Assembly: GCA_021825295.1 (NCBI GenBank)
Contig: JAKAHV010000030.1
Location: forward strand, 1 to 39,809
Source: Nitrospirota bacterium
GTDB lineage: Bacteria > Nitrospirota > Thermodesulfovibrionia > Thermodesulfovibrionales > JdFR-88
Direction: 5' to 3'
DNA length: 39,809 bases
In this document: piece by piece, positions 34,614-36,323 of the stretch
Position numbering within the stretch: position 1 is the first letter of the stretch
Layout of the letters: every line of letters starts with the position of its first letter
Program-made: the position numbers and the translations under genes
The notes under the pieces: generated by a model
The model's input: only the letters and a program-made list of their open reading frames with translations
Database searches by the model: none
What the model was told of the DNA's origin: nothing

Positions 34614-36323
<1,710 letters not shown>

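Follow-up and report, generated by a model that had tools for sequence, protein, structure and literature searches.

We describe a predicted group 1 [NiFe]-hydrogenase, membrane-bound and H2-oxidising, whose large-subunit gene has in-frame UGA at the codons of both L1 nickel ligands. We consider it very probable that the enzyme is of this kind and that both UGAs are read as selenocysteine (Sec), with one conserved downstream hairpin acting as their SECIS. The gene lies in a 39,809-nucleotide window (the whole stretch of DNA that was analysed) from a Nitrospirota genome, and the features of the locus are collected in Table 1. Such an enzyme would be a [NiFeSe]-type hydrogenase of a new layout, likely with Sec as both L1 ligands, one of them probably terminal and the other bridging.

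Table 1. Features of the hydrogenase locus, in window coordinates
Feature	Position	Strand	Basis or remark
[NiFe]-hydrogenase large subunit gene	34614..36323	(-)	569 codons + stop, two in-frame TGA; PF00374, 3myr_B
TGA codon 60, first L1 ligand position, predicted Sec	36144..36146	(-)	aligns with first Cys of RICGVC
TGA codon 63, second L1 ligand position, predicted Sec	36135..36137	(-)	aligns with second Cys of RICGVC
L2 motif DPCMACAVH, both ligands Cys	34662..34688	(-)	translation
Candidate bacterial SECIS hairpin	36101..36117	(-)	fold, covariation, synonymous suppression
Hydrogenase small subunit	36327..37424	(-)	TIGR00391 454.4 bits; PF14720
Ni/Fe-hydrogenase b-type cytochrome subunit	33931..34593	(-)	TIGR02125 140 bits, above cut-off; PF01292
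HyaD/HybD-type hydrogenase maturation protease	33428..33940	(-)	TIGR00072 150.3 bits; PF01750

The large-subunit frame opens with an ATG (36323-36321, minus strand) and ends at codon 570 with TGA (34616-34614). The preliminary description of this DNA had placed TGA at both L1 nickel-ligand cysteine codons and had traced the frame from position 36323 through an intact 506-codon remainder containing D-P-C-M-A-C-A-V-H, and re-reading bore out both: the L1 motif is R-I-UGA-G-V-UGA-T-T-V-H, with the UGAs at codons 60 and 63, the frame past codon 63 stays open for 506 codons up to the stop TGA, and L2 is D-P-C-M-A-C. The product matches PF00374 with an E-value of 1.3e-239. When it is compared with solved structures, with C written for U in the query, its best relative is 3myr_B (745.7 bits, residues 3-554), and in this alignment the two cysteines in the RICGVC motif of solved hydrogenases fall on TGA-60 and TGA-63. 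With homology over its full length and both the L1 and L2 motifs in place, the window gene encodes a full-length group 1 [NiFe]-hydrogenase large subunit. TGA is used in this gene as internal codon and terminator alike, and because the gene itself terminates with TGA we rejected a genome-wide reassignment of UGA.

The surrounding operon has the small subunit, b-type cytochrome and maturation protease that go with a group 1 hydrogenase, in the order small subunit, large subunit, cytochrome and then protease. The small subunit has a twin-arginine-like signal, SRREFMK (by eye), and for the cytochrome we picked the ATG at 34593 as the start within the open reading frame 33931-34683. Going by what is known of the family, the enzyme of this operon is predicted to face the periplasm, to be quinone-linked and to oxidise H2. 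We also noted that the proximal [Fe-S] cluster motif of the small subunit is CCGN instead of CxxC (window 37235-37224). The second Cys of this CxxC is replaced by N or D in 46 of the 54 UGA/UGA loci with a small subunit and in 14 of the 15 Cys/Cys loci, so one proximal-cluster ligand probably differs from that of standard enzymes in this hydrogenase family. Downstream of the operon are two multiheme cytochrome-like genes (27913-30558 and 30575-31378) with MtrC/MtrF-like and cytochrome c7 domains.

If two TGAs were scattered at random over the 569 codons, they would land on codons 60 and 63 with a chance of 1 in 161,596, in line with the earlier argument that two chance nonsense mutations are unlikely. 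The same codon pair recurs across homologues, and we take this recurrence to be the stronger argument of the two. A contig scan gave 583 relatives, and only the best 80 loci were kept, so the set leans to near relatives. Together with the window, these best 80 of 583 provide 82 large-subunit rows (one locus, L041, contributes two), of which 62 are UGA/UGA, 3 Cys/UGA and 17 Cys/Cys. We built a tree of these rows with Sec and Cys both coded as C, so that the L1 trait carries no signal; on it the three L1 states require 8 changes, and the Cys/Cys relatives are interleaved with the UGA genes. The UGA/UGA genes come from Nitrospirota and Chloroflexota, and three UGA/UGA loci titled Deltaproteobacteria/Proteobacteria (L034, L036, L067) fall within the Nitrospirota part of the tree.

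We also took a census of 395 Nitrospirota genomes, 154 of which have a match at E 1e-60 or better. The DNA was read for 130 of the 150 matches listed (30 loci and 100 more, the window's own gene included); the 20 left out are at most 57% identical or partial. Among the 130 listed matches read, 71 are UGA/UGA (own included), 26 Cys/UGA and 33 Cys/Cys. The L1 motif search, which required C, S or UGA at both positions, matched all 130, and the only codons found at positions 60 and 63 were TGA, TGC and TGT. An alignment of related large subunits at these two codons had been proposed in the preliminary description, and every census homologue read has Cys or TGA there, the in-frame UGAs aligning with the Cys of homologues as in selenoproteins. 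Many genomes are common to the census and the 80-locus set, so the two counts are not independent. The family is wider than the single window gene, with UxxU, CxxU and CxxC members.

These data also bear on the idea of a pseudogene or an assembly error, in which the UGAs would be two nonsense mutations or base-calling errors. Nothing points to this beyond the TGA codons themselves in a draft assembly, and against it the same two codons occur in many separate assemblies from at least two phyla, none of the 130 census matches read has another stop between L1 and L2, and the operon is intact. We regard this explanation as ruled out by the recurrence among homologues, with a negligible probability.

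A second Nitrospirota clade, about 51-54% identical to the window gene, is mostly Cys/UGA with one UGA/UGA member (L264). Its loci (L041, with motif start 1242, L261, L262 and L265-L284) have hairpins of their own, for example GCACUG-GCUU-CAGUGC, and in L041 and G366 the second-clade copy lies about 4 kb from a UGA/UGA copy. For this clade we would predict selenium at the second L1 position only. Of the 120 database proteins that matched best, 118 have full length and Cys/Cys and 2 are 498-aa fragments of UGA genes, which fits the UGA family being overlooked, although a fragment gets a lower score and hence a lower rank in such a list.

Just 3' of the two UGAs there is a candidate bSECIS hairpin with covariation, in which CAGCUC (36117-36112) pairs with GAGCUG (36106-36101) around the loop CGUGA (36111-36107). 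The loop is 32 nt downstream of UGA-60 and 23 nt downstream of UGA-63. The bSECIS consensus asks for a G in one of the first two loop positions, frequently with G or U as the next base, at 16-37 nt from the UGA (PMC13188914). The CGUGA loop agrees with that consensus for both UGAs, and because both distances are inside the 16-37 nt range a single hairpin satisfies the rule for the two of them.

We aligned this region without gaps in 61 UGA/UGA genes (L055, a UGA/UGA gene with a changed neighbour residue, is not among them). The stem columns (30-35/41-46) have double-sided changes of the types A-U/G-C/U-A, G-C/C-G and C-G/U-A. Pairing holds in 82.5% of cells across the 59 distinct rows, with a covariation of 0.127 against 0.075 when shuffled (0/500 as high). 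Two of the six stem pairs fail in 26-30 of these 59 rows; the six-pair hairpin misfits some UGA/UGA genes because 27 of the 61 have a re-registered hairpin with the loop GGU. For a type-I set chosen by the TCCGTG motif (n=36, 34 UGA/UGA and 2 Cys/UGA), 96.7% of cells pair versus 83.9% shuffled, and the covariation is 0.329 versus 0.097, again with 0/500 as high. The 16 Cys/Cys genes have 55.2% pairing and no covariation beyond shuffles at the hairpin columns.

Third-position freedom, which we expressed as a mean normalised synonymous entropy, is suppressed in the same region of the UGA genes. Over codons 61-76 the entropy is 0.49 in the 61 UGA/UGA genes versus 0.80-0.87 elsewhere (codons 5-340), and in the Cys/Cys genes it is 0.87 versus 0.71-0.82 elsewhere. 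When codons 64-76 were compared with the rest in the census, the values were 0.44 versus 0.82 for the 71 UGA/UGA genes and 0.42 versus 0.76 for the 26 Cys/UGA genes (0/20,000 random column sets as low in each case), and 0.84 versus 0.85 for the 33 Cys/Cys genes (8,412/20,000 as low). Folding energy against codon-preserving shuffles (27-mer) was a weak test: the mean z was -1.16 in UGA/UGA and -0.63 in Cys/Cys genes, with p <0.05 in 6/61 and 2/16 genes, respectively, and the window's own 57 nt gave a z of -1.67. An Rfam scan of the window returned no match at gathering scores.

Another hairpin directly after UGA-60 (GGCGU..ACGCC with GAAC/GUUC) folds in the window and is broken in several relatives, so we claim no conservation for it and rejected it as a candidate. 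Directly 5' of the first UGA, the Ile codon 59 (window 36149-36147) is ATA in 58 of the 61 UGA/UGA genes and is perhaps part of the recoding context.

The hairpin also matters for where the protein begins. Under translation table 11 the open reading frame is 34614-36110, starting at the GTG of codon 72 (36110), and the database entry for the window gene (P0003) is the 498-aa fragment from that codon. If this were the true start, the protein would lack the L1 ligands and would have another role, which we consider exceedingly improbable. Codons 1-59 are conserved as protein in homologues, and the L2 ligands, small subunit, protease and cytochrome are all intact. The supposed start codon is the GUG of the hairpin loop; it is GTG in all 61 UGA/UGA genes and is not kept in Cys/Cys genes, and a UGA/UGA gene from the census (L189) has GTT at codon 72 with the stem retained (by eye), so the conservation here is not that of a start codon.

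With a single hairpin and two UGAs, it could be that only UGA-63 is decoded efficiently, that UGA-60 mostly terminates or is misread, and that the working enzyme has one Sec. A hairpin, whether this one or a different one, is also retained in Cys/UGA genes, whose only UGA is UGA-63, so it may be there mainly for UGA-63; the 32 nt from UGA-60 to the loop is toward the far end of the range given in PMC13188914. However, UGA-60 accompanies UGA-63 in 71 of the 97 UGA-bearing census genes and stands alone in 0/130, and one would expect a codon at which translation of a key enzyme mostly stops to change back to UGC or UGU. We think a one-Sec enzyme quite unlikely and favour Sec at both positions.

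The window's own genome (an assembly of 2.89 Mb in 65 contigs, 91% complete) encodes SelA (601 bits), SelB (366 bits, the single SelB above the cut-off) and SelD (342 bits), and its selD has an in-frame TGA at the usual Sec site, SGUASK. A TlpA/ResA-like thioredoxin open reading frame in this genome (L342 2654-3025) contains W-UGA-P-Q-C and, judging from the sequence, is probably another selenoprotein of the organism. The preliminary description had proposed a search for selA, selB, selD and tRNA-Sec in the same genome, and had counted a genome with no Sec machinery and no TGA homologues as evidence against its reading. The three protein genes are there and TGA homologues are many; the one shortfall is a whole tRNA-Sec, not found in this assembly though the sister species has one.

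The own assembly, 91% complete, yielded no whole tRNA-Sec(UCA); what it does contain is a stretch of 26 nt that copies the 3' end of the sister tRNA-Sec (C62:53812-53837; L342 1501-1526). In the sister species (G001/G368), the whole tRNA-Sec(UCA) adjoins a phage-type integrase gene (L112 154-1473), and the likeliest reading is that an element integrated in selC, together with an assembly gap, explains the missing gene. A selC within or beside selB is reported for some Nitrospirae (PMC13188914); ARAGORN found none in the stretches of the own genome examined, and a search of this genome for the flank of the sister's selC gave only partial matches (67-81% identity). The sole own-genome match above the tRNA-Sec cut-off (62.4 bits) is a tRNA-Cys with a tRNA-Sec-like shape, anticodon GCA and U73, as in selC* tRNA-Cys. 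It lies at C6:41833-41928 (L001 1501-1596), between an acyl-CoA dehydratase activase-type gene and yedF (TIGR03527). Such selC* tRNA-Cys are known from Nitrospirae, having been described by Mukai et al. 2017 and reviewed in PMC7609411.

We surveyed this machinery in the genomes of 47 of the 80 loci and in the own genome. Matches to the tRNA-Sec model of at least 60 bits occur in 30 of the 33 other UGA/UGA genomes (sister included), and ARAGORN called a tRNA-Sec(UCA) in 29 of those 30, that is, in 29/33. A whole tRNA-Sec was not seen in the remaining four: in G007 the best match to the model is a GCA tRNA-Cys by ARAGORN, G022 has a 5' half that runs into a stretch of N, and none was seen in G014 and G025. 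In G010, G017 and G020, GCA tRNA-Cys matches stand beside a UCA tRNA-Sec, and extra model matches in G009 and G016 received no ARAGORN call. A GCA tRNA-Cys match in G042 (L153 ~1500-1634) has a longer variable arm (by eye).

SelB is above the cut-off in 32/34 UGA/UGA genomes (own included), 9/12 Cys/Cys genomes and 2/2 Cys/UGA genomes, and selA turned up in 4 of the 5 UGA/UGA genomes in which it was looked for. The UGA/UGA genome G025 gave no SelA match and no SelB match, and G034 has SelB only below the cut-off. Since 9 of the 12 Cys/Cys genomes have SelB, the machinery alone does not set the L1 state. Two sister Chloroflexota Cys/Cys genomes (G027 and G031, one of them titled Roseiflexus) had no SelA, no SelB at E 1e-40 and SelD only below the cut-off; G027 has no tRNA-Sec match above the cut-off, and the best match in G031 is a tRNA-Ser.

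The tRNA-Cys on contig C6 raises the question of whether the UGAs are read as Cys, by a selC* tRNA-Cys or another opal suppressor, in an ordinary all-Cys [NiFe]-hydrogenase. The own genome and G007 alike have this tRNA and no tRNA-Sec(UCA) found in the assembly; also, UCA anticodons do occur among selC* tRNAs, and certain lineages carry an additional SelB that goes with these tRNAs (PMC7609411). However, the anticodon GCA, in the own genome as in G007, G010, G017 and G020, pairs with UGC and UGU, so the C6 tRNA is no UGA decoder by normal pairing. The own genome has only the one SelB above the cut-off and a SelD with UGA at its usual Sec site, and the tRNA-Sec and selA counts of the other UGA/UGA genomes also weigh against Cys. 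We give Cys decoding only a small chance. Sec at both L1 nickel-ligand positions, as the preliminary description had it, is supported by selA, selB and selD, by the exchange of TGA with Cys codons in the 130 homologues, and by the covarying hairpin.

In HysA-type enzymes the single Sec is at a terminal ligand position, in the C-terminal L2 motif. Classical [NiFeSe] HysA (Desulfovibrio vulgaris Hildenborough, Desulfomicrobium baculatum) has the same fold and superfamily as the window enzyme, with Sec among the four nickel ligands, and the solved [NiFeSe] enzymes 3ze6_B and 1cc1_L match the window large subunit (P0001) with 323 and 306 bits. In contrast to HysA, the window gene has Cys/Cys in L2 and UGA at both L1 positions, its product is about 60 residues longer (569 versus 507 in 5jsu_B), and it scores under the NCBIfam NiFeSe cut-offs (NF033181, 553.6 versus 600 bits; NF045518, 407.4 versus 780 bits). 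The L2 Sec codon of the HysA type (DPUxxC) was found neither in the window nor elsewhere in the census, where 130/130 matches read have DPC-xx-C, that is, Cys/Cys.

FrhA and MvhA/VhuU (groups 3a and 3c) also have a natural Sec in a [NiFe]-hydrogenase large subunit, as predicted here, and are of a different group; they have one Sec, in L2. P0001 scores far below the cut-offs of the FrhA and VhuA models. In E. coli Hyd-1, Cys-to-Sec substitutions were reportedly made in the laboratory one at a time, whereas here the two L1 changes occur together, naturally and in many species. These engineered variants, from Evans et al. (2021, PNAS), put Sec in place of active-site Cys in a group 1 enzyme; H2 oxidation is reported to have been lowered at any position, and oxygen tolerance to have gone up at the natural NiFeSe position (PMC9961374).

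One homologue (P0024) is named 'hydrogenase, group If', and a Roseiflexus enzyme (L066) is within the 82-row tree. The nearest all-Cys relatives, 71-76% identical (five aligned), are probably HydDB group 1f enzymes, from Roseiflexus and from Geobacteraceae; unlike the window gene, they have Cys at both L1 positions and are without the covarying hairpin. Roseiflexus enzymes are placed in group 1f in PMC6776052. Based on the name of P0024 and the Roseiflexus member, the window enzyme is likely in group 1f, which HydDB describes as oxygen-protecting with an unresolved role.

Based on these data, we propose the following. SelB on the hairpin at 36117-36101 would deliver Sec-tRNA-Sec to UGA-60, and SelB bound to the same hairpin would then serve UGA-63, three codons on. 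In the mature enzyme, nickel would be held by two L1 selenolates and two L2 thiolates, and H2 uptake would be quinone-linked through the b-type cytochrome. In the standard [NiFe] geometry, the first L1 ligand is terminal and the second bridging. The first L1 selenolate would be terminal and the second would bridge Ni and Fe; from their codons, the Cys/UGA genes would have bridging selenium only. The [NiFe] site as a whole has two terminal and two bridging cysteines (PMC9961374). There may be an effect on oxygen tolerance or catalytic bias, as the preliminary description suggested, and any benefit for oxygen recovery or kinetics is speculation.

To our knowledge, the known natural Sec hydrogenases have one C-terminal ligand replaced. 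Selenoproteome papers list FrhA, with MvhA/VhuU in PMC9312934 and PMC13188914, and in the available parts of these two sources both are tabulated with the motif UxxC, the only form in which hydrogenase large subunits appear. A 2026 review describes Sec hydrogenases as exclusive to sulfate reducers and methanogens (PMC13188914). Other UxxU selenoproteins (Prx-like, mercuric-reductase-like metal-binding protein, FmdB-like), which also have two predicted Sec codons three apart, are tabulated in PMC13188914 and PMC9312934, with no hydrogenase among those in the parts available. The accessible portions of PMC9312934, PMC13188914, PMC1794560, PMC5029168 and HydDB make no mention of an L1-type or double-Sec hydrogenase large subunit. 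A literature search that included portions of PMC10779653, PMC5037454, PMC6776052, PMC9961374, PMC11291895 and PMC9723677, and covered few subscription papers, found no report of Sec in a hydrogenase L1.

We judge it probable that the window gene belongs to a widespread, overlooked hydrogenase class with two L1 Sec residues (one terminal, one bridging Ni and Fe) and a single SECIS, and that the CxxU and CxxC relatives form a graded series with it in Nitrospirota and Chloroflexota. Ordinary gene calling begins the window protein at the GUG inside the hairpin, which is a practical blind spot: the resulting 498-aa fragment is without L1, and hydrogenase surveys could overlook such a gene or put it in the wrong class. 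For recoding, the gene is a testable case of two UGA codons possibly served by one SECIS. If the prediction is confirmed, the Ni-Fe site of this natural enzyme would have two selenium ligands, one of them bridging. The CxxC, CxxU and UxxU relatives offer a natural experiment on the role of selenium in oxygen recovery, bias and activation.
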